From: Hysterangium stoloniferum
Lineage: Eukaryota > Basidiomycota > Agaricomycetes > Hysterangiales > Hysterangiaceae
Length of the DNA: 64,000 bases
Assembly (NCBI GenBank): GCA_015178975.1
Contig: WHVD01000020.1
Span: 682,001-746,000, forward strand
Direction: 5' to 3'
Part shown: positions 5,881 to 28,000 of the stretch, one piece after another
Numbering within the stretch: the first letter of the stretch is position 1
How the letters are laid out: each line of letters begins with the position of its first letter
Made by a program: the position numbers and the translations under genes
Notes under the pieces: generated by a model
What the model was told of the DNA's origin: nothing
Database searches by the model: none
Seen by the model: only the letters and a program-made list of their open reading frames with translations

Positions 5881-6219
5881 CTCTGCACAATTTCAACAAA
5901 GAAAAGAGTCCTGCAACGTAAATTTGTCCCATAGGTTGCAATTACAAACCAAACCGAGATATAGGCGAAGGATAGGATTGCGAATCATACCTGAAAGACT
6001 CTATTTAAAGTCTTGATTTAGCTGGCCCTGTCGTTCAACGGGCGCCCAAATAAAAAACTAATCGCCACTCTATTTCCTGTTTTGTCTGAACGATCAAATA
6101 AGAAGCAACAAATGACCTCACCGGCAGGTTCGTCGCCGTTGTTCAACTGTATCCAAAATAACTGCAAGAAGACTACTCTGCCCGCTCTGAATAAACTGTT
6201 AAAAGTGTAGAAAATGAAT

Positions 6220-6288
6220 GGCCAGACTGGGAATTTAACCCAGGGCTTCTGCATATATAGCAGGGTATTACCACTACACCACCTGACC
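6220..6288 (-). tRNA. tRNA-like sequence, probably a pseudogene
   Basis: Read on the minus strand, 69 nt fold into a cloverleaf. The acceptor is GGTCAGG against TCTGGCC (two wobble pairs), the D arm is GTGT/ATAC around AGTGGTA, and the T arm is CTGGG-TTAAATT-CCCAG. The A box (TGGTGTAGTGGTA) and much of the B box are recognisable. The anticodon loop reads TATATAT, so position 33 is A instead of the near-universal T, and the T loop lacks its usual C. The top pair of the anticodon stem also mismatches. It is therefore more likely a decayed tRNA or tRNA-derived repeat than a working gene. A related remnant with the same flank (CCATTCA-TTTTCTAC) lies at 51297. Confidence 0.45.
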
Positions 6289-13924: not shown

Positions 13925-13955
13925 CATCCCATCAATCAATCAATCAATCAATCAT
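13925..13955 (+). repeat. (ATCA)n microsatellite
   Basis: About six tandem ATCA units lie immediately before the first satellite module. Confidence 0.85.
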
Positions 13956-15039
13956 CATATAAAGTAAAGTTGTACGGTGGGTGGTGGGCGTTTTTAGGCG
14001 CCGCAGGCCGAGGGCGCGGAGCGCCCGAGTTTTTCCCGATCCGGCCCTGAAATCCCGATGAGGGCGAGCTGTCCCGGTGAGGGCGCGTTAGCGCCCGAAT
14101 TTTTCAATTAGTCAGCGCGGGTGCATTTTTGCACTCGCGGGAGTATTTAATGGCGCCGCGGGAGCTTTTCTCACAGCGCGGGAGCATTTATGGCGCCGCG
14201 GGAGTATTTTGTGACGGGAACGGAAGTATTTTCTAACGCGCGGAGGTATTTTGTGACGCGCGGGAGCATTTTATCACGTGCGCGGAGGTATTTTTTAATG
14301 CCGCGGGAGCATTTTTGAAACGCGCGGGAGTATTTGTCACATGCGCGGAACCATTTCATACGACCAATGGAAACATTTCCCACGCACCTCCAGTAGAATT
14401 TCCCGCGCCCTTCATGTCAGCATTTCCCACGCCCTTCACCGGACCATTTCCCGCGCCCCTCAAGAACACATTTCCCACGACCTTTCCGGGAGAATTGCCC
14501 GCCCCCTTTTGGGAGTATTTCCCGCGCCCTCACGGAAGCATTCGATAAAATACAATAAATGAAAATAAAATGTTGAAAAATAAAATAAAATAGAATAAAT
14601 CGAAATAAAATACAGTAAATGAAAATAAAATGCTTCAAGATTAAATAAAATCAGAAAAATCAAAATAAAATACAATAAATCAAAATAAAATGTTTAAAAA
14701 TAGAATAAAATAAAATAAAATAAAATGCAATAAATTAAAATACAAGAAAATATGTCAAAATACAATACAATATATCAATGCTCAATCAAAGAAAGTAAAG
14801 TATCAATGCTCCATGAATGCTTAATGAGTGTTCTCCTCTTCTCAATCAATGCTATATATATCATATCAATGCTGTGTCAATTGCACATCAATTCCAGTTC
14901 AAAACTGTTGCTCCTTTTGTACCCATTGTTCCTTTTGAAACCATTGTTCCATTTGTGATATTTCTTTCTGTATTTTGTAATACCTTTTGTAATGGTTTCT
15001 GTTCTTTAAACAGTTTCCATTCTTACACTTTTGTGACTG

Positions 15040-15285
15040 TTTCCGTTGTAACGGGTGTTTCCGTTGTAACGGGTGTTTCCGTTGTAACGGGTGTTTCCGT
15101 TGTAACGGGTGTTTCCGTTGTAATGGGTGTTTCCGTTGTAACGGGTGTGTCCGTTGTAACGGGTGTTTCCGTTGTAACGGGTGTTTCCGTTGTAACGGGT
15201 GTTTCCGTTGTAACGGGTGTGTCCGTTGTAACGGGTGTTTCCGTTGTAACGGGTGTTTCCGTTGTAATGGGTGTTTCCTTTTGTT
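15040..15285 (+). repeat. 18 bp minisatellite, GTTGTAACGGGTGTTTCC
   Basis: About 13 copies of GTTGTAACGGGTGTTTCC occur with rare single-base variants (TTTCC to GTCC, AACGG to AATGG). An 18 bp period keeps frames open on both strands as six-residue repeats, which explains the long frames without coding. Confidence 0.9.
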
Positions 15286-15551
15286 TCTCTTTCTCAGAAT
15301 TGTTTCCTTTCATTTCCTGTTGTAACCATTGTTTCCTTTGTAACACTTTCCATCCCCTGAACACTTTCTGCTCTGAGGTGACTTTCTGTTTTAAGGTGAC
15401 TTTCTGTTCTAAGGTGACTTTCTGTTCTAAGGTAACTTTCCTTTCTAAGGTAACTTTCCATTCTAAGGTGACTTTCCATTCTAAAGTGACATTCCGTTCT
15501 AAAGTGACTTCCCTTCCTTTAAAGACTTTCTGAACAGTTTCTGTTCTTATG

Positions 15552-16500
15552 TTCTACGAGACTCTACGTTCTACGAGACTCTACGTTCTACGAGACTCTA
15601 CGTTCTACGAGACTCTACGTTCTACGAGACTCTACGTTCTACGAGACTCTACGTTCTACGAGACTCTACGTTCTACGAGACTCTACGTTCTACGAGACTC
15701 TACGTTCTACGAGACTCTACGTTCTACGAGACTCTACGTTCTACGAGACTCTACGTTCTACGAGACTCTACGTTCTACGAGACTCTACGTTCTACGAGAC
15801 TCTACGTTCTACGAGACTCTACGTTCTACGAGACTCTACGTTCTACGAGACTCTACGTTCTACGAGACTCTACGTTCTACGAGACTCTACGTTCTACGAG
15901 ACTCTACGTTCTACGAGACTCTACGTTCTACGAGACTCTACGTTCTACGAGACTCTACGTTCTACGAGACTCTACGTTCTACGAGACTCTACGTTCTACG
16001 AGACTCTACGTTCTACGAGACTCTACGTTCTACGAGACTCTACGTTCTACGAGACTCTACGTTCTACGAGACTCTACGTTCTACGAGACTCTACGTTCTA
16101 CGAGACTCTACGTTCTACGAGACTCTACGTTCTACGAGACTCTACGTTCTACGAGACTCTACGTTCTACGAGACTCTACGTTCTACGAGACTCTACGTTC
16201 TACGAGACTCTACGTTCTACGAGACTCTACGTTCTACGAGACTCTACGTTCTACGAGACTCTACGTTCTACGAGACTCTACGTTCTACGAGACTCTACGT
16301 TCTACGAGACTCTACGTTCTACGAGACTCTACGTTCTACGAGACTCTACGTTCTACGAGACTCTACGTTCTACGAGACTCTACGTTCTACGAGACTCTAC
16401 GTTCTACGAGACTCTACGTTCTACGAGACTCTACGTTCTACGAGACTCTACGTTCTACGAGACTCTACGTTCTACGAGACTCTACGTTCTACGAGACTCT
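15552..16500 (+). repeat. 17 bp minisatellite, about 56 identical copies
   Basis: TTCTACGAGACTCTACG is repeated over 949 bp with no variant that I could see. The 17 bp unit gives an apparent 17-residue protein repeat that stays open for over 900 bp. Complete homogeneity points to very recent expansion, conversion or possibly assembly extrapolation. Confidence 0.95.
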
Positions 16501-16510
16501 TAATCTCTGA

Positions 16511-16656
16511 CAATGAGGCTCAGAAATACTTAAGAGTTGTCGACGCGGGGGGGTTTGGGGGGCGAAGCCCCCCAACAAGCCGGAGCCCGCAGCGAAGTTG
16601 TGGGGCAGGTCACGAAGTGACCGCCCCGCAGCGTAGCAAGGGTTCCCAGGCTTGTC
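16511..16656 (+). repeat. GC-rich hairpin cassette, copy 1
   Basis: It begins CTCAGAAATACTTAAGAGTTGT, then a G-rich run, the stem GGGGGGC-GAA-GCCCCCC, a region where CAACAA can pair with GTTGTGGGG-side sequence, the perfect stem GGTCAC-GAA-GTGACC, and the tail GGGTTCCCAGGCTTGT. Two hairpins share a GAA loop. It closes module A. Confidence 0.9.
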
Positions 16657-18554
16657 AATATATAGTAAAGTTGCTTGGTGGGTGGTGGGCGTTTTTAGGC
16701 GCCGAAGGCGCCCCAATGCGTGAGGGCGCGGAGCGCCCGAATTTTTCCCCAATTTGTGAGGGCGCGCAGCGCCCGAACCTCACTGTCTGACTAAGCTGAG
16801 GGCGCGTTAGCGCCCGAAGTCTCTTATTAGTCAGCCCGGGGGCATTTTTGCACACGCGGGAGTATTTAATGACGCCGCGGGAGCTTTTCTCACGGCGCGG
16901 GAGCATTTGTGACGCCGCGGGAGTATTCTGTGACGGGCGCGGAAGTATTTCCTAACGCGCGGAGGTATTTTGTGACGCGCGGAAGTATTTGTCTACGCGC
17001 GGGAGTATTTCATTACGTGCGCGGAGGTATTTTTACATGCCCGGAAGTATTATGTCATGTGCGCGGAGGTATTTTCCGATGCCGCGGGATCATTTTTGGA
17101 ACGCGCGGGAGTATTTGTCATGCGCGGAACCATTTCATACACCGGACACATTTCCCACGAACCTCCAGTAGAATTTCCCGCTTCATGTCAGCATTTCCCG
17201 CGCCGTTCACGTAAGCATTTCCCGCGCAGTTCTCATAGCCATTTCCCACGCCCTTCACCGGACCATTTCCCGCGCCCCTCAAGAACACATTCCCACGACC
17301 TTTCCGGGAGAATTGCCCGCCCCCTTTTGGGAGTCTTTCCCACGCCCTCACGGAAGCATTCGATAAAATACAATAAATGAAAATAAAATGTTTAGAAATA
17401 AAGTAAAATAGAATAAATCGAAATAAAATACAGTAAATGAAAATAAAATGCTTCAAAATTACATAAAATCGGAAAAATCAGAATAAAATACAATAAATCA
17501 AAATAAAATGTTTAAAAATAGAACAAAATAAATCAAAATAAAATGGAATAAATTGAAATACAATAAAATATATCAAAATACAATACAATATATCATTTTT
17601 CCATTTTATTGAAATACAATAAAATATATCAAAATACAATACAATATATCAATGCTCTATCCACGCTCTATTAATGTTTCTTCAATGCTTATCAATTCTC
17701 AATCAATGCTATATCATATCAATGCTGTCTCAATTGTACATCAATTCCAGTTGAATCAACTCAATCTCTATTCAGTTACTCCATCTGAAACCATTGCTTT
17801 TTTGAAACCATTACTCCTTTTGCAACCATTGCTCCTTTTGAAACTGTTGCTCCTTTTGTACCCATTGTTCCTTTTGAAACCATTGTTCCATTTGTAATAT
17901 TTCTTTCTGTCTTTTGTAATACCTTTTGTAATGGTTTCTGTTCTTTAAACAGTTTCCATTCTTACACTTTTGTCACTGTTGTTTTCTTTTGTCACTGTTG
18001 TTTTCTTTTGTCACTGTTGTTTTCTTTTGTAACTGTTGTTTTCCACTGTTGTTTTCTTTTGTGACCATTCTTTTCTTTTGTGACTGTTGTTTTCTTTTGT
18101 AACCATTGTTCTCTTTACCATTGTTTTCTTTTGTGACTATTATTTTCTTTTGTGACCTTTGTTTTCTTTTGTAACTGTTGTTTTCTTTTGTCACTGTTGT
18201 TTTCTTTTGTGACCATTCTTTTCTTTTGTGACCATTGTAAAGGGTGTTTCCTTTGTAATGTTTGTTTCATTTTGTTTCTCTTTATCACAATTGTTTCCTT
18301 TCATTTCGTGTTGTAACCATTGACTCCTTTGCAAACATTGACTCCTTTGTAACCATTGAGTTCCTTTGTAACCATTGAGTTCCTTTGTAACCGTTGATTC
18401 CTTTGTAACCGTTGATTCCTTTGTAACCATTGATTCCTTTGTAACCGGTGTTTTCTTTGTAACCATTGTTTCCTTCCTTTGTTGTTTCCTTCCTTTGTAA
18501 TGGGTGTTTCCTTTATAACACTTTCCATTCCCTGAACACTTTCCATCTAAAGTG

Positions 18555-19095
18555 ACTTTCCTTTCTAAGGTGACTTTCCGTTCTAACGTGACTTTCCGTT
18601 CTGACGTGACTTTCCGTTCTGACGTGACTTTCCGTTCTGACGTGACTTTCCGTTCTGACGTGACTTTCCGTTCTGACGTGACTTTCCGTTCTGACGTGAC
18701 TTTCCGTTCTGACGTGACTTTCCGTTCTGACGTGACTTTCCGTTCTGACGTGACTTTCCGTTCTGACGTGACTTTCCGTTCTGACGTGACTTTCCATTCT
18801 GACGTGACTTTCCGTTCTGACGTGACTTTCCGTTCTGACGTGACTTTCCGTTCTGACGTGACTTTCCGTTCTAACGTGACTTTCCGTTCTAACGTGACTT
18901 TCCGTTCTAACGTGACTTTCCGTTCTAACGTGACTTTCCGTTCTAACGTGACTTTCCGTTCTAACGTGACTTTCCGTTCTAACGTGACTTTCCGTTCTAA
19001 CGTGACTTTCCGTTCTAACGTGACTTTCCGTTCTAACGTGACTTTCCGTTCTAACGTGACTTTCCGTTCTAACATGACTTTCCGTTCTAATGTGA
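18555..19095 (+). repeat. 18 bp minisatellite, GTGACTTTCCGTTCTRAC
   Basis: About 30 copies. The first half uses TCTGACGTGACTTTCCGT and the second half TCTAACGTGACTTTCCGT, with a sharp switch near 18860. This indicates block-wise expansion of two variants. Long frames on both strands (six-residue repeats) are a by-product of the period. Confidence 0.93.
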
Positions 19096-19122
19096 CTTCC
19101 ATTCAAACAGCTTCCCTTTTAG

Positions 19123-19270
19123 AACAATGGGCCTCAGAAATACTTAAGAGTTGTTGATGCAGGGGGGTTTGGGGGGCGAAGCCCCCCAACAAGCCGGAGC
19201 CCGCAGCGAAGTTGTGGGGCAGGTCACGAAGTGACCGCCCCGCAGCGTAGCAAGGGTTCCCAGGCTTGTC
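19123..19270 (+). repeat. GC-rich hairpin cassette, copy 2
   Basis: From the G-run to GGCTTGTC it appears identical to copy 1. The upstream side differs slightly (GTTGATGCAGG for GTCGACGCGG) and it shares the leader TTAGAACAATGGGCCTCAG with copy 3. Confidence 0.9.
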
Positions 19271-21115
19271 AAATAAAGTAAAGTTGCTTGGTGGGTGGTG
19301 GGCGCTTTTTGGCGCCGAAGGCGCCCTAATCCGTGAGGGCGCGGAGCGCCCGAATTTTTCCCCAATTTGTGAGGGCGCGGAGCGCCCGAACCCTCAGGGG
19401 TGGGAGTGTGTGACTCAGCTGAGGGCGCGCTAGCGCCCGAAGTCTCTCATTAGTCAGCGCGGGAGCAAATCCGGATGCTTTTTGGCGTTCGCGGGAGCAT
19501 TTTAGGGCCGCGGGAGTATTTGTGCCGCCGCGGGAGTATTCTGTGACGGGCGCGGAAGTATTTCCTAACGCGCGGAGGTATTTTGTGACGCGCGGAAGTA
19601 TTTGTCCACGCGCGGGAGTATTTCATTACGTGCGCGGAGGTATTTTTACATGCCCGGAAGTATTATGTCATGTGCGCGGAGGTATTTTCAGATGCCGCGG
19701 GAGCATTTTTGGAACGCGCGGGAGTATTTGTCATGCGCGGAACCATTTCATACACCGGACACATTTCCCACGAACCTCCAGTAGAATTTCCCGCGCCCTT
19801 CATGTCAGCATTTCCCGCGCCTTTCACGTAAGCATTTCCCGCGCAGTTCTCATAGCCATTTCCCACGCCCTTCACCGGACCATTTCCCGCGCCCCTCAAG
19901 AACACATTCCCACGACCTTTCCGGGAGAATTGCCCGCCCCCTTTTGGGAGTCTTTCCCGCGCCCTCACGGAAGCATTCGATAAAATACAATAAATGAAAA
20001 TAAAATGTTTAGAAATAAAGTAAAATAGAATGAATCGAAATAAAATACAGTAAATGAAAATAAAATGCTTCAAAATTACATAAAATCAGAAAAATCAGAA
20101 TAAAATACAATAAATCAAAATAAAATGTTTAAAAATAGAACAAAATAAATCACAATAAAATGGAATAAATTGAAATACAATAAAATATATCAAAATACAA
20201 TACAATATATCATTTTTCCATTTTATTGAAATACAATAAAATATATCAAAATACAATACAATATATCAATGCTCTATCCATGCTCTATTAATGTTTCTTC
20301 AATGCTTATCAATTCTCAATCAATGCTATATCATATCAATGCTGTCTCAATTGTACATCAATTCCAGTTGAATCAACTCAATCTCTATTCAGTTACTCCA
20401 TCTGAAACCATTGCTTTTTTGAAACCATTACTCCTTTTGCAACCATTGCTCCTTTTGAAACTGTTGCTCTTTTTGTACCCATTGTTCCTTTTGAAACCAT
20501 TGTTCCATTTGTAATATTTCTTTCTGTCTTTTGTAATACCTTTTGTAATGGTTTCTGTTCTTTAAACAGTTTCCATTCTTACACTTTTGTCATTGTTGTT
20601 TTCTTTTGTCACTGTTGTTTTCTTTTGTAACTGTTGTTTTCCACTGTTGTTTTCTTTTGTGACCATTCTTTTCTTTTGTGACTGTTGTTTTCTTTTGTAA
20701 CCATTGTTCTCTTTACCATTGTTTTCTTTTGTGACTATTATTTTCTTTTGTGACCTTTGTTTTCTTTTGTAACTGTTGTTTTCTTTTGTCACTGTTGTTT
20801 TCTTTTGTGACCATTCTTTTCTTTTGTGACCATTGTAAAGCGTGTTTCCTTTGTAATGTTTGTTTCCTTTTGTTTCTCTTTCTCACAATTGTTTCCTTTC
20901 ATTTCGTGTTGTAACCATTGTTTCCTTTGTAACACTTTCCATCCCCTGAACACTTTCTGCTCTGAGGTGACTTTCTGTTTTAAGGTGACTTTCTGTTCTA
21001 AGGTGACTTTCCATTCTAAGGTAACTTTCCATTCTAAGGTGACTTTCCATTCTAAGGTGACTTTCCATTCTAAAGTGACTTTCCATTCTAAAGTGACATT
21101 CCGTTCTAAAGTGAC

Positions 21116-21572
21116 ATTCCGTTCTTTAAAGACATTCCGTCCTTTAAAGACATTCCGTCCTTTAAAGACATTCCGTCCTTTAAAGACATTCCGTCCTTTA
21201 AAGACATTCCGTCCTTTAAAGACATTCCGTCCTTTAAAGACTTTCCGTCCTTTAAAGACATTCCGTCCTTTAAAGACATTCCGTCCTTTAAAGACATTCC
21301 GTCCTTTAAAGACTTTCCGTCCTTTAAAGACTTTCCGTCCTTTAAAGACTTTCCGTCCTTTAAAGACTTTCCGTCCTTTAAAGACTTTCCGTCCTTTAAA
21401 GACTTTCCGTCCTTTAAAGACTTTCCGTCCTTTAAAGACTTTCCGTCCTTTAAAGACTTTCCGTCCTTTAAAGACTTTCCGTCCTTTAAAGACTTTCCGT
21501 CCTTTAAAGACTTTCCGTCCTTTAAAGACTTTCCGTCCTTTAAAGACTTTCCGTCCTTTAAAGACTTTCTGA
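21116..21572 (+). repeat. 18 bp minisatellite, TTTAAAGACTTTCCGTCC
   Basis: About 25 copies in two variants, GACATTCC in the first third and GACTTTCC afterwards, with a few interspersed. The same DraI-like TTTAAA occurs in every unit. Confidence 0.93.
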
Positions 21573-22129
21573 ACACTTTCCATTCTTACGTTCTACGAGT
21601 TAGAACACTTTCTGTTCTTAGAACACTTTCTGTTCTTAGAACACTTTCTGTTCTTAGAACACTTTCTGTTCTTAGAACACTTTCTGTTCTTAGAACACTT
21701 TCTGTTCTTAGAACACTTTCTGTTCTTAGAACACTTTCTGTTCTTAGAACACTTTCTGTTCTTAGAACACTTTCTGTTCTTAGAACACTTTCTGTTCTTA
21801 GAACACTTTCAACACTTTCCGTTCTGAGAACACTTTTCATTCCTTTGTAACCATTGACTCCTTTGACTCCTTTGTAACCATTGAGTTCCTTTGTAACCAT
21901 TGAGTTCCTTTGTAACCATTGAGTTCCTTTGTAACCGTTGATTCCTTTGTAACCATTGATTCCTTTGTAACCGTTGATTCCTTTGTAACCGGTGTTTTCT
22001 TTGTAGCCATTGTTTCCTTCCTTTGTTGTTTCCTTCCTTTGTTGTTTCCTTCCTTTGTTGTTTCCTTCCTTTGTAATGGGTGTTTCCTTTATAACACTTT
22101 CCATTCCCTGAACACTTTCCATCTAAAGT

Positions 22130-22490
22130 GACTTTCCGTTCTAACGTGACTTTCCGTTCTAACGTGACTTTCCGTTCTAACGTGAGTTTCCGTTCTAATG
22201 TGACTTTCCGTTCTAACGTGACTTTCCGTTCTAACGTGAGTTTCCGTTCTAACGTGAGTTCTACGTGAGTTTCCGTTCTAACGTGAGTTTCCGTTCTAAC
22301 GTGAGTTTCCGTTCTAACGTGAGTTTCCGTTCTAACGTGAGTTTCCGTTCTAACGTGAGTTTCCGTTCTAACGTGAGTTTCCGTTCTAACGTGAGTTTCC
22401 GTTCTAACGTGAGTTTCCGTTCTAACGTGAGTTTCCGTTCTAACGTAAGTTTCCTTCCTAACGTGAGTTTCCGTTCTAACGTGACTTCCA
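22130..22490 (+). repeat. 18 bp minisatellite, TCTAACGTGAGTTTCCGT
   Basis: About 20 copies, with the shift from GTGACTTT to GTGAGTTT in the first six units. It is clearly related to the module B array at 18555-19095. Confidence 0.92.
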
Positions 22491-22510
22491 TTCAAACAGC
22501 TTCCCTTTTA

Positions 22511-22659
22511 GAACAATGGGCCTCAGAAATACTTAAGAGTTGTCGATGCAGGGGGGTTTGGGGGGCGAAGCCCCCCAACAAGCCGGAGCCCGCAGCGAAG
22601 TTGTGGGGCAGGTCACGAAGTGACCGCCCCGCAGCGTAGCAAGGGTTCCCAGGCTTGTC
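22511..22659 (+). repeat. GC-rich hairpin cassette, copy 3
   Basis: It appears identical to copies 1 and 2 through the two GAA-loop hairpins and the GGGTTCCCAGGCTTGTC tail. Confidence 0.9.
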
Positions 22660-22809
22660 CATATAATGAATTTTGCTTGGTGGGTTGTGGGTCCACCTTG
22701 CCTTTTTTAGTAATTAAGGCGCCCAGATTATGTCATCACCCAGGCTTTTGGATTCCTGTCACACATGTCCCGTCACCCGCGTTCCTGTCACGGATGGCCA
22801 TCGTCGTTT

Positions 22810-23275
22810 ACCAACGCGCGCACTCAGTCCCATCCACCGCGCACCACTCCCATCCACGGCTGACCCGCACCCATCCACCGCGCACCCATCCACCGCGCAC
22901 CCATCCATGGCGCACCCATCCACCCGCACCCATCCACCCGCACCCATCCACCGCGCACCCATCCACCGCGCACCCATCCACCGCGCACCCAACCACCCGC
23001 ACCCATCCAGCCGCACCCATCCACCGCGAACCCAACCACCCGTACCCATCCAGCCGCGAACCCAACCACCCGTACCCATCCAGCCGCACCCATCCACCCG
23101 TACCCATCCACCCGTACCCATCCACCGCGCACCCACCCACGGCGCACCCATCCACCCGCTCCCATCCGCCGCGCACCCATTCACCGCGCACCCATCCGCC
23201 GCGCACCCATCCACCGCGTACCCATCCATCACGCACCCACTCCCATCCACGGCGCACACACTCCCATCCATGGGC
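22810..23275 (+). repeat. 14-15 bp minisatellite, ACCCATCCACCGCGC
   Basis: Interspersed variants (ACCCATCCACCGCGC, ACCCATCCACCCGC, ACCCATCCAGCCGC) are strongly C-rich on the plus strand. Open frames in several registers (T/H/P and W/V/G repeats) reflect composition only. Confidence 0.9.
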
Positions 23276-23414
23276 ACATGCCTGCCCGCCCACTCGGGCA
23301 CAAACCGGCAAAGCGCGTTCCGTTTGCCAACGCGCGCACGCGCCACGCCTGTTCGCAACGCGCTGTGCCCATTTGTGCCCAATTGGGCGTGCACCCTGCT
23401 CTGATTGGCCCCTC

Positions 23415-24440
23415 CAGTTGGTGCGTGTCCCCTTTCCTTCTCTCTTCATCCTCCTCTGATCGTCCTCACCTCTTTCCTCCAGGATGTGTGTCCCCTTTCC
23501 TTCTCTCTTTGTCTGTCTGTCTTTCCTCCAGTTGGTGCGTGTCCCCTTTTCTTCTCTCTTCGTCCTCCTCTGATTGCCTCCTCTCTCTTTCCTCCAGGAT
23601 GTGTGTGTACCCTTTCTTTCTCTCTTCGTCCTCCACTCATGGGCCTCCTCTCTTTCCTCCAGGAAGTGCATGTACCCTTTCCTTCTCTCTTCGTCCTCCT
23701 CTGATGGCCTCCTCTCTTTCCTCCAGCAAGTGCGTGTCCCCTTTCCTCCTCTCTTTGTTCTCCTCTGATCGTCCTCCTCTCCCTTTCCTCCAGCGAGTGC
23801 GTGTACCCTTTCCTTCTCTCTTTGCCCTCCTCTGATTGTCCTCCTCTCCCTTTCCTCCAGTGAGTGTGTACCCTTCCCCTCTCCCTTTTTTCTCCAGGAG
23901 GTGCGTGTACCCTGTCTTTCTCTCTTTGTCTTCTTCTAATCGTCCTCCTCTCTCTTTCCTCCAGGAGTTGCATGTAGCCTGTCTTTCTCCCTTTGTCCTC
24001 CTCTCTTTCCTCCAGGCGGTGGGTGTACAGTTTCCTTCTCTCTTCATCCTCCTCTGATTGTCCTCCTCTCTTTCCTCCAGCCAGTGTGTGTACCATTTCC
24101 TTCACTCTCCGTCCTGCTCTGAATGGGCCCCTCTCTCTTTCCTCCAGATAGTGTGTGTACCATTTCTTTCTCTCTCCATCCTGCTCTGATTGGCCTCTCT
24201 TGCCTCCAGGTGGTGCATGTACCATTTCCTTCTTCCTCCATCCTGCTCTGATCAGCCCCATCTCTCTTTCTTCCAGGGTGCCTGTGCTGTTTCCTTCTCT
24301 CTTTGTCCTCTGATTGACCTCCTCTCTCTTTCCTCCAATGAGTGTGTGTACTGTTTCCTTCTCTCTTCCTCCCCATCTGATTGGCCTCCTGTCTGTCCTC
24401 CCGGAGGTGCGTGTCCCCTTTCCTTCTCTTTTTGTCCTCT
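23415..24440 (+). repeat. 63-66 bp polypyrimidine tandem repeat
   Basis: About 16 degenerate copies of a unit running GTGTACCCTTTCCTTCTC - TCTTTGTCCTCCTCTGAT - TGTCCTCCTCTCTTTCCTCC - AGG. Nearly all bases on the plus strand are pyrimidine, apart from the GTGCGTGTA and CTGAT islands. The long minus-strand frames rich in K/R/E/G are compositional. Confidence 0.9.
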
Positions 24441-24779
24441 GATCACAGCAATCCTAAAATAAAAATAATATACATTAAATAAAAATACAATGGAATAAAT
24501 TAAAATAAAATGCAGTAAATTAAAGTGAAATTCAATAAATTAGAATAAAATACAATAAATCAAAATAAAATACATGAATCATGATGAACTAAGTAAATCA
24601 AAATAAATAAATCAGCTACCCACATTAATTAGTTGACTGACTGTCAATTCAACCATTGGAACCATTCTTCCGTTGGTAACCATTTTTCCTTTTGTAATGA
24701 TTCATCCTTTTATACATTGTTCCCTTTGTAACTGTTTGTTCTTTTATAAGTGTTGTTTACTTTGTACCATTGTTTCCTT

Positions 24780-25045
24780 TGTAACCATTGATCCATTTGT
24801 AACCATTGATCCATTTGTAACCATTGTTCCTTTTGTAACCATTGTTCCTTTTGTAACCATTGTTCCTTTTGTAACCATTGTTCCTTTTGTAACCATTGTT
24901 CCTTTTGTAACCATTGTTCCTTTTGTAACCATTGTTCCTTTTGTAACCATTGTTCCTTTTGTAACCATTGTTCCTTTTGTAACCATTGTTCCTTTTGTAA
25001 CCATTGTTCCTTTTGTAACCATTGTTCCTTTTGTAACTGTTATTT
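24780..25045 (+). repeat. 18 bp minisatellite, CCATTGTTCCTTTTGTAA
   Basis: About 14 copies, nearly identical, with two CCATTGATCCATTTGTAA variants at the start. Single units of the same sequence occur in the transitions of modules A-C, so this array grew from a shared element. Confidence 0.92.
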
Positions 25046-25624
25046 CCATTCTCTAAACACTTTCCGTTCTTTACACAGTTTCCACAATTTTTGTTCTCTA
25101 AACACTTTCTGTTGTCTGAACACCTTCCATTCCCCAAACACTTTCTGTTCTACAAACACTTTCCATTTAACAAACACTTTCCATTCTACAGTACAAACAC
25201 TTTCCGTTTAACAAACACTTTCCGTTTAACAAACACTTTCCGTTTAACAAACACTTTCCGTTTAACAAACACTTTCCGTTTAACAAACACTTTCCGTTTA
25301 ACAAACACTTTCCGTTTAACAAACACTTTCCGTTTAACAAACACTTTCCATTTAACAAACACTTTCCGTTGAACAAACACTTTCCATTCTACAAACACTT
25401 TCCATTCTACAAACACTTCTGTTCTACAAACACTTTCCGTTCCACAAACACTTTCCATTCTACAAACACTTCTGTTCTACAAACACTTCCATTCCACAAA
25501 CACTTTCAGTTCCACAAACACTTTCAGTTCCACAAACACTTTCAGTTCCACAAACACTTCCATTCTACAAACACTTCCGTTCTACAAACACTTTCAGTTC
25601 CACAAACACTTTCCATTCCCCAAA

Positions 25625-26163
25625 CACTTTCCTTTCTCCGAACACTTTCCTTTCTCTGAACACTTTCCTTTCTCTGAACACTTTCCTTTCTCTGAACACT
25701 TTCCTTTCTCTGAACACTTTCCTTTCTCTGAACACTTTCCTTTCTCTGAACACTTTCTGTTCTCTGAACACTTTCTGTTCTACGAACACTTTCCGTTCTA
25801 CGAACACTTTCCGTTCTACGAACACTTTCCGTTCTACAAACACTTTCCGTTCTACGAACACTTTCCGTTCTACGAACACTTTCCGTTCTACGAACACTTT
25901 CCGTTCTACGAACACTTTCCGTTCTACGAACACTTTCCGTTCTACGAACACTTTCCGTTCTACGAACACTTTCCGTTCTACGAACACTTTCCGTTCTACG
26001 AACACTTTCCGTTCTACGAACACTTTCCGTTCTACGAACACTTTCCGTTCTACGAACACTTTCCGTTCTACGAACACTTTCCGTTCTACGAACACTTTCC
26101 GTTCTACGAACACTTTCCGTTCTACGAACACTTTCCGTTCTACGAACACTTTCCGTTCTAACA
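25625..26163 (+). repeat. 18 bp minisatellites, TCTCTGAACACTTTCCTT and TCTACGAACACTTTCCGT
   Basis: Two adjacent arrays, the first of about 8 copies and the second of about 21, share the core GAACACTTTCC. The preceding 25150-25620 array uses TTAACAAACACTTTCCGT and TCTACAAACACTTTCCGT with the same core. Confidence 0.92.
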
Positions 26164-26176
26164 GTTTCTCTTTTAC

Positions 26177-26323
26177 AACAATGGACCTCCAAAATACTTT
26201 AGAGTTGTGGACGTGGGGGGGTTTGGGGGGCGAAGCCCCCCAACAAGCCGGAGCCCGCAGCGAAGTTGTGGGGCAGGTCACGAAGTGACCGCCCCGCAGC
26301 GTAGCAAGGGTTCCCAGGCTTGT
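26177..26323 (+). repeat. GC-rich hairpin cassette, copy 4
   Basis: The core from GGGGGGC-GAA-GCCCCCC to GGTTCCCAGGCTTGT appears identical to the other three. The leader is more diverged (ACAATGGACCTCCAAAATACTTTAG). It ends the satellite region, and ordinary sequence follows at 26324. Confidence 0.9.
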
Positions 26324-28000
26324 TCATTAGTCATAATTGCATGTTGTCGATGCTCGGCTATTTCGTACTTTACAGTAGCTTAGTCATCACATGTATTTTG
26401 GTAGGGACTTTGTCATCCCCTCACCCACATGAAATCCCGTTGCATATTCTTACAATATTAACGTGAGGATGAATACTGATAAACACTATTAACATAACAC
26501 CATATCACGCAGCTTAATGGCGGCATGGATTATCCAGCCGAGAGCACTAAGGCCATCGAGCAAGCCAGCAAAACATTTTAAATGGAACGGGGATCCCTTC
26601 TATGAACTGGTTAATGACAGATGTAGGCCAGCACGCCTCGCTCTGAATAATATAATGTGATCTGCAATGCACCCACATGATGTTGGAATGTTGAAGGATG
26701 TCATGGATGAAAGCATGCAGTGGAATTCGTTGAGGAGGGTGCATGGTGGTTGGTGATGAAGTAAAGCATAGAGGGAGAAGGGAGTTGATATGCAGCAGGC
26801 CATCAAGGCACCTGGAGAATCCTCCCCATGCATACTTTCATATTGGAGTGGACTCATCACCTGAATGAATGACATTAAAACCTTCTTTCTATATGTCTAC
26901 AATATGTTGAATGGCAAGCTCTGTACCAAAAGTACCCATTAGCTTGAATTAGGATGGCCACAATTGATCATGTCAGAAATGCTGACTCATTAATGATGGC
27001 TTGAGGTTTGAACATTGTCTATCTCAACACCCTCTTTGCTGCAAACCAGACCATACCTTTTGTATGTCACCATATCAGCATGTCACCTGCAGGACCCAAA
27101 CAGGCCAGCAGTCACTCCCACATGCAAGAAAATGTGCTCAGCACCATATAATTCATATAGTCCCACCCAAGTATTATATCAACAGGGCCTATTTTCATGC
27201 AGGGAAGAGGTCCATGGGTCCCCAAAGGTGTGAGGTGCCATGTATAGCTAACCAGAGAAATTATACAGGGACTGACAGTGCTGCACCTCCAAGTGCAGGT
27301 CCCCAGCAGCTCACTGGTGGGACTCACCCCACCCAGTCAACATAAATATATATTAATATTAATATCTACATAAAATAGTGATACAGTTTTGTTGTATCTT
27401 CTGTCCACAATTGAATTATGGGAAGAGTCTACTGAGTTCCATCATGTCCAAGGCTAATCCTCCTCCTATATGCACTTAGGTAGCTGAAAATAAACTATGA
27501 GCCCTATTCAAGACCTTAATACTATTAAATAAGGATAACATTGACACTCACAGGTCTAGGTCAAATACCATATCAGGCCACATGGGGTCATTTATGCTAG
27601 ACAACACCATTGCAACAAATTCACCTGGCCAAAATTAACTGACCCAAGATCCCCTAACTCTAATCCTTGGGCAGGGGCACCTGGTATCACTAATGCACAT
27701 TTGATGGAGCCTAGTAACATGTGATAAATTATATAAACTGGAGGACAATAGTAGTATCACCTCAGTCCATTATATGATATATGAGACTGAGGTGAGTTAA
27801 TATTGTTATGTACTCACAAATAATGTAACTAATAGCCACTCATTAGTTATATTATCATTAGGTCTTACTTTCTAACAATTTATCCAACTGGGCTCTGCAT
27901 CATAAGAAGCATGCAATTGCACATCCAGGACAGGTCCCCCAAGGGGCTAGAAATATAATGTGGAGAAGTACATTCAAACAAGAATATGGTAAGTGATTCT
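26324..28000. other. CpG-poor, gene-free stretch
   Basis: No confident gene is present. Short minus-strand frames at 26547-26875 and 27112-27327 are compact but unrecognised. From about 26,640 onward CG dinucleotides all but vanish; none was found on reading 27,001-27,600. Confidence 0.5.
27720..27886 (+). repeat. LTR-like fossil piece with hairpin
   Basis: It carries the stem CACCTCAGTC...GACTGAGGTG (27761-27798) and ends TTTCTAACA. The same stem is in the solo LTR at 42665-42930. The 5' boundary and a target duplication could not be fixed. Old and CpG-depleted. Confidence 0.35.

Follow-up and report, generated by a model that had tools for sequence, protein, structure and literature searches.

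A composite satellite block resolved into head-to-tail non-autonomous Helitrons

Introduction

What kind of element builds satellite-like DNA from long composite units that all close on the same hairpin? The question is raised by a 64,000-nucleotide stretch of Hysterangium stoloniferum DNA (contig WHVD01000020.1, here C113; positions 682001-746000; hereafter the window). An initial annotation of its sequence recorded four head-to-tail modules at 13962-26323 and assigned their architecture to no named element class, proposing instead a non-autonomous mobile unit, a centromere- or subtelomere-related element, or a satellite that spreads by recombination. Here we follow up that annotation by sequence comparison in a single genome assembly (111.1 Mb, 554 contigs), in which the window is internal to a 995-kb contig. 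The best-scoring chains for an EF-1alpha frame of this genome were 1f60 (Saccharomyces, 454 bits) and 5o8w (Candida, 453.9), ahead of the mammalian 5lzs (436), as would suit a fungus, perhaps a basidiomycete. The architecture matches that of a known class, the non-autonomous Helitron. We conclude with high confidence that the modules are such elements, moved in trans by the Rep-helicase (RepHel) of coding copies that share their ends, and that the array arose mostly from serial insertions.

Results

Unit limits were set via the 3′ motif, tandem repeats were mapped and the whole block was read. The block comprises four non-autonomous Helitrons, head to tail on the + strand, at window positions 13955-26322; the annotated order and shared closing cassette are therefore retained, with the bounds corrected by a few bases. 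Every module starts with TC and finishes with CTTG: module 1 spans 13955-16654 (5′ TCATATAAAG), module 2 16655-19268 (TCAATATATAG), module 3 19269-22657 (TCAAATAAAG) and module 4, which has a different 5′ family (TCCATATAATG), 22658-26322. The base before module 1 is the final A of an (ATCA)n tract (13931-13954, + strand) that is either a host microsatellite or the leftovers of older 5′ ends, and this A stands at the insertion point. The base after module 4 is T, the host sequence there being TTCATTAG. All three inner junctions are perfect G|TC joints with zero host bases between the units.

The closing cassette is the most uniform part of the block. Its last 107 nt are identical across all four modules (16548-16654, 19162-19268, 22551-22657 and 26216-26322, all + strand, the last running directly into the host sequence), in agreement with the annotated identity of the hairpin core, and the cassettes are pairwise identical at 138-149 of 150 nt. 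This terminus combines a G-rich hairpin (GGGGGGC GAA GCCCCCC) with an imperfect 79-nt palindrome, CAAGCC...GGCTTG, that includes the end base. Folded as single-stranded DNA, the terminal 80 nt reach -25.9 kcal/mol, whereas shuffled sequences average -12.9 (z -5.6; none of 200 shuffles as good), and the G-rich hairpin just upstream of the palindrome has a z of -3.96. Rfam at gathering thresholds gave no matches in the window, so the hairpins are not explained by a curated RNA family.

Copies of both ends are dispersed through the genome. Cassette and head each match many contigs, among the best 40 of 455 and the best 40 of 196 candidates scored, respectively. There are 350 exact 3′ ends, 346 of them followed by T (reversed control, 0); the other four are all tandem junctions, at which a head comes next with its TC reading CC, and for many of the 346 the T is that of a following TC. 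Other listed 3′ ends also finish CTTG, small mismatches aside. The first 100 listed of the 346 already lie on at least 34 contigs, so the element is not confined to one locus, and among them neighbouring ends less than 10 kb apart share a strand in 38/40 pairs. Contig C28 carries at least 13 exact 3′ ends within 45 kb.

The base composition around the ends defines the target. Exact matches to the 5′ end TCATATAAAGTAAAGTTGYW number 71, of which 50 come after A and none after C or T; by subtraction the remaining 21 follow G, as at tandem junctions, and among the 50 As are some from the ladder pieces described below rather than from host DNA. In the loci examined, all 14 non-tandem 5′ ends come after A, and the two bases after 48 distinct 3′ ends are TC (41), CC (4), TA (2) or TT (1), with one of the TCs (L003) followed by no known head. 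Insertion sites thus read A|TC and CTTG|T, not the TT or T-rich targets that define Helentron, HINE and Helitron2 elements. The general tandem-junction pattern has 77 matches genome-wide compared with 1 for the reversed control, and 3 of the 77 carry an odd 22-bp insert. At C173:19089, C173:86000 and C233:33299 a TC...CTTG stretch of ~22 bp lies between GCTTG and a TATAAG remnant head; it may be a very small element or the terminus of a different family.

Coding copies with related ends are present in the same genome. Helitron_like_N (PF14214) has 151 matches, some within open frames as long as 1923 aa; the 14 control genomes, all prokaryotes, gave none. Element L071, 7180 bp long, starts with TC (388) and finishes with CTTG (7567); close to its 5′ end lies a forward GCGGGAGTATTT-type array, followed downstream by a Rep-helicase gene in pieces. 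Searched separately, these pieces matched Helitron_like_N (E 3.9e-59), PIF1 (7.7e-70) and Pif1_2B (7e-14), and the Rep piece matched Helraiser (PDB 7lcc, E 1.4e-99); an endonuclease domain was not among the Pfam matches of the pieces from this one decayed copy. The L071 5′ end is 66-72% identical to modules 1 and 3.

Closer matches to the modules were found at other coding loci. L025 and L072 have the 3′ cassette of the modules immediately after PIF1-type frames, and identity to these two loci is 93-97% over the final 131-137 bp of each of the four modules, through the last base. The heads of modules 1-3 match RepHel-bearing loci at 77-84% over about the first 235-287 bp; the module 1 5′ terminus with its GC palindromes (13955-14189, + strand) aligns at 80% to RepHel-bearing L064 from its first base, the Rep of that element being located at C38:161039. 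Support from partner ends therefore comprises 5′ matches for modules 1-3 and 3′ matches for all four, and additional matches in L062 and L072 come from non-autonomous neighbours inside the same loci. Shared ends are the usual relation of non-autonomous elements to their partners, and the copies with open frames are candidate active elements. Three Rep domains occupy one strand of C153:8457-23464 at spacings of 7228 and 7228 bp, marking tandem RepHel-type copies.

To place the modules relative to each other, their first 700 bp were compared across the loci examined. Module 1 is 99.3% identical to L043/L018 (one locus, contig C464) compared with 76% to module 2. Module 4 is 90.9% identical to L023 and has no sibling-module match. 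Identity between modules 2 and 3 is 91%, above the 84% that module 2 reaches with other loci examined. The four units therefore fall into at least three lineages, and the array would be mostly the product of separate insertions; a duplication could account for modules 2 and 3. Local tandem duplication was set aside for module 1, whose nearest kin lies elsewhere, and for module 4, which lacks a sibling match.

A record of insertion into older copies is found at the 5′ ends. Extra short pieces (TCA, TCAA, TCCAA, TCATA and others) stand before 15/35 distinct head junctions in the loci examined, forming a ladder; disregarding any TC 18 nt or less from the head motif, all 21 inner TCs follow A, and TCA accounts for 11/21 units. 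If new copies insert between A and T (A^T) within an older 5′ end, truncated remnants are expected after some 3′ ends. Such remnants, CTTG|TATATAG or CTTG|TATAAAG, were found at four places (reversed control, 0), and a fifth from another 5′ family, CTTG|TATAAGTGAATTC, at C234. One of the five, on C28, was verified on both sides: the site reads TCAA|2134-bp element|TATATAGTAAAG, and the prefix and the TATATAG remnant rejoin to the intact 5′ end TCAATATATAGTAAAGTTGCTTGG with nothing duplicated and the insertion lying between A and T. At C124 no head was found in the part of the 5′ side examined (L092), and the remnants at C90, C544 and C234 are known from the 3′ side alone. On C334 a 7-kb element comes after an 83-bp 5′ fragment with CCA at its end, and L005, L016 and L072 contain the site in uncut form, CCATAAAAGG; in this case a whole new element follows and no remnant, so that the 5′ side only is shown.

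New copies thus do enter older 5′ ends at A^T, and the ladder with its matching remnants points to the first bases of older copies as the place of entry. For plain G|TC junctions, 5′ A^T and 3′ G^T entry are both possible. Helitrons produce no target duplications, and the duplications that had been anticipated as a sign of mobility are absent from the single two-sided site, C28.

Between the conserved ends the modules vary. Modules 1-3 follow the plan first described, with GC palindromes, forward and reverse motif arrays, an AT block and minisatellites; of these features module 4 shows the last two, and lacks the GC head and the opposed arrays. Within the first 720 bases, forward motifs number 9 in module 1, 9 in module 2 and 10 in module 3, and each of the three has 6 reverse motifs; of 1000 sequences simulated per module under a Markov-1 model, none had more than 2. 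Module 4 contains 0 of either. The first 171 nt of module 4 have a predicted RNA fold of -34 kcal/mol, compared with -62 to -81 for modules 1-3. The module 1 arrays, forward (CGGGAG/CGGAGG/CGGAAG-ATTT type) and then reverse (ATTTCCCGC type), occupy 14115-14530 (+ strand), with equivalents at 16855-17348 in module 2 and 19490-19977 in module 3. The GCGGGA motif resembles an E2F-type site, and any regulatory role for it is a guess.

The AT block of module 1 (ATAAAATACAATAAATCAAA, 20-bp period) lies at 14545-14778 (+ strand) and those of modules 2, 3 and 4 at 17363-17595, 19980-20212 and 24457-24574. Minisatellites follow at 15038-16500 (+ strand) in module 1 and at 17967-19098, 20961-22484 and 24656-26160 in modules 2, 3 and 4. 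The 18-bp unit originally assigned to these minisatellites is right for two of the module 1 arrays and wrong for the longest, which repeats a 17-bp unit 55.9 times at 100% match. In place of the opposed arrays, module 4 carries replacement filler at 22866-24443 (+ strand), made up of a 15-bp CGCACCCATCCACCG array (22866-23239) and a ~65-bp array (23520-24443). The impression that the cap is conserved and the arrays are free to change was a fair one, the cap being the transposition terminus and the arrays filler.

Variation was also seen within the 3′ hairpins. Among the 48 distinct 3′ ends, the G-rich hairpin has a GAA/AAA loop in 31 and a TTC/TTT loop in 7, with 10 unparsed, as if these small loops were inverting. 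Regular flipping of the whole 3′ palindrome was set aside, the exact inverted-end pattern having only 3 matches genome-wide. One (C367:541155, - strand; L050 = L085) shows an exact inner inversion of the palindrome before a TC head, another (C234:12453, - strand; L084) has a palindrome that is shortened and symmetric, followed by a truncated head, and the third (C496; L086) is unrelated sequence. A further diverged inverted palindrome lies at L069 (C535:169142, + strand). These inverted palindromes are rare and reminiscent of flip/flop termini.

The surroundings of the block hold other features. To its right, 26329-26454 is a dispersed repeat of ~130 bp; among the listed copies six pairs are separated by ~0.9-1.0 kb. 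The L083 copy reads TGTTAGAAG...CCTTACA with CAAAG on both sides, resembling the short long terminal repeats of a TRIM-type element. On the - strand of the window, an open reading frame at 40994-41833 matches DDE_3 (1.4e-10) and HTH_Tnp_Tc3_2 (8e-9), as in a Tc1/mariner-type transposase, and ARAGORN predicts a tRNA-Ile (anticodon TAT) at 6219-6288.

Discussion

The Helitron identity of the modules is concluded because RepHel-coding partners share their ends, the ends are fixed, the copies are dispersed, insertion is at A/T sites and the one vacant site shows no duplication. Of the options initially put forward, it is the non-autonomous mobile unit that the dispersed copies, fixed ends and coding partners with the same ends support. 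Features of the Helitron1 type are present: a 5′ TC, a partner encoding Rep and a PIF1-like helicase, insertion between A and T, and no target duplication at C28. By this model Rep would nick at the 5′ TC, the helicase would peel off one strand until the 3′ terminal hairpin halts the process at CTTG, and a circle or single strand would then join between the A and T of the target. Judging from module divergence and from junctions elsewhere, the array would have grown mostly as different copies inserted one after another beside or just inside older 5′ ends, not by a single tandem duplication. The minisatellites may be filler that turns over within the elements without coding function.

Several observations weigh against this interpretation. 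Textbook Helitrons have a 3′ CTRR and a palindrome 10-12 nt before the end; here all four modules finish CTTG, and the palindrome contains the element end. The CTRR mismatch was not taken as excluding membership because HELPO2, a published fungal Helitron family, also ends CTTG (PMC4289320). The Rep-helicase frame of L071 is interrupted by stops, its 3′ end is without a long palindrome (z -2.35; 5/200 shuffles equal) and aligns to the modules over only 70 bp (89-93%). The first 171 bp of module 4 have no match in the RepHel-bearing loci compared. No vacant site with the joined flanks of the window block was found in the best 40 of 460 candidates, which were 2 self halves and 38 copies of the dispersed right-flank repeat. 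Rolling-circle movement itself is an inference, not an observation.

An alternative for the array as a whole is a single event, either a multimer made by rolling-circle read-through past the 3′ end or a local tandem duplication. The perfect G|TC junctions without a host base would suit it, an argument made for bat arrays and quoted in PMC2267711, as would the equal 7228- and 7228-bp spacing of the three C153 Rep domains and the closer likeness of modules 2 and 3 (91%, compared with 84% between module 2 and other loci examined). Such an event nevertheless leaves modules 1 and 4 unexplained, since module 1 is 99.3% identical to the C464 copy and only 76% to module 2, and module 4, of a different 5′ family, matches no sibling over the first 700 bp. 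We therefore regard it as improbable for the array, and for modules 2 and 3 it is still possible. The ladder has its own rival explanation, ordinary microsatellite slippage in place of nested insertion. Most ladder units are indeed short, and TCA makes up 11/21. Against slippage stand the A before all 21 inner TCs, the four truncated remnants (0 in the reversed control) plus the fifth at C234, and the exact rejoining of prefix and remnant around one element at C28, and an 83-bp unit such as that at C334 is impossible by slippage. This explanation of the ladder is unlikely but not negligible.

Long minisatellites and tandem higher-order units are also what a structural satellite of centromeres or subtelomeres, spreading by recombination, would display. 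No evidence supporting this option was obtained, and 350 exact 3′ ends, fixed ends, the A/T target and the sharing of these ends with RepHel partners speak against it, as do the 34 contigs among the first 100 listed 3′ ends and the position of the window inside a 995-kb contig; we consider it scarcely credible. Perfect 17-bp repeats over 950 bp are difficult to assemble, and array lengths may be wrong in the assembly. That the block itself is an assembly artefact is nonetheless very unlikely, the same junction types recurring genome-wide with 77 matches compared with 1 in the reversed control.

Taken together, these results favour serially inserted non-autonomous Helitrons. Whether such arrays grow mainly on the 5′ side, new copies entering at an A^T that lies within, or immediately ahead of, the opening bases of older ones, is in our judgement evenly balanced; hybrid 5′ ends would then be mobile, and each element would carry a ladder recording earlier insertions.

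Parts of this picture are in print, namely tandem Helitrons, CTTG ends and satellite-filled relatives, and are compared here as described in the passages cited. HELPO1 and HELPO2 of Pleurotus ostreatus insert at AT, have a subterminal hairpin and encode Rep and helicase in one open reading frame; HELPO2 ends CTTG, and according to a figure legend, copies of HELPO1.3 contain inverted repeats as well as a satellite whose repeat number varies (PMC4289320). By these described features the present elements are alike, as fungal Helitrons with AT insertion and the CTTG of HELPO2. In that account, however, intact non-autonomous copies are given for HELPO1 only and the main text is without the word "tandem" (PMC4289320), whereas here minisatellite-filled non-autonomous CTTG copies stand in long arrays. 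FoHeli of Fusarium oxysporum is likewise a fungal Helitron, and one FoHeli4 is inserted 2 bp upstream of the partial 5′ end of another, but FoHeli has Helitron2-type ends with asymmetric inverted repeats, and other target sites (PMC5148889).

Adjacent Helitrons of maize and tandem Helibats share the G/T head-to-tail junction seen here, with TC directly after the other element's 3′ end; the maize neighbours differ in content, and the passage leaves their insertion order open between 5′ A^T and 3′ G^T (PMC2267711). To this the present genome adds a genome-wide junction pattern, truncated 5′ remnants and one vacant site in an older 5′ end. Helraiser (Helibat1) has a homologous Rep, the same 5′ TC and A/T target, and a 3′ hairpin described as a terminator, but its end reads CTAG and its palindrome, 19 bp long, lies 11 nt upstream of it (PMC4778049), in place of CTTG and a 79-nt palindrome that includes the end. 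The Cg_HINE Helentrons of the Pacific oyster (PMC7492417) and DINE-1 (PMC4067079) are also non-autonomous rolling-circle types that can have a satellite-like, tandem-repeat centre between conserved ends; their described targets are TT or T-rich and they have subterminal inverted repeats, in contrast to the A/T target here.

Less familiar is the 5′ ladder of nested TC...A pieces with matching truncated remnants, for which no description was found in the portions of the Helitron literature searched, which is not proof of its absence. An apparently unknown composite satellite is thus resolved into a known transposon type, and a mobile element is shown to be able to seed satellite-like DNA in a probable fungus. 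Ladders and remnants together form a sequence record of insertion order, so that the origin of tandem arrays, by read-through or by 5′ or 3′ insertion, becomes testable from assemblies alone. If growth on the 5′ side is true, the block would be a satellite built by transposition, and would favour one answer to the question of insertion order raised in maize.

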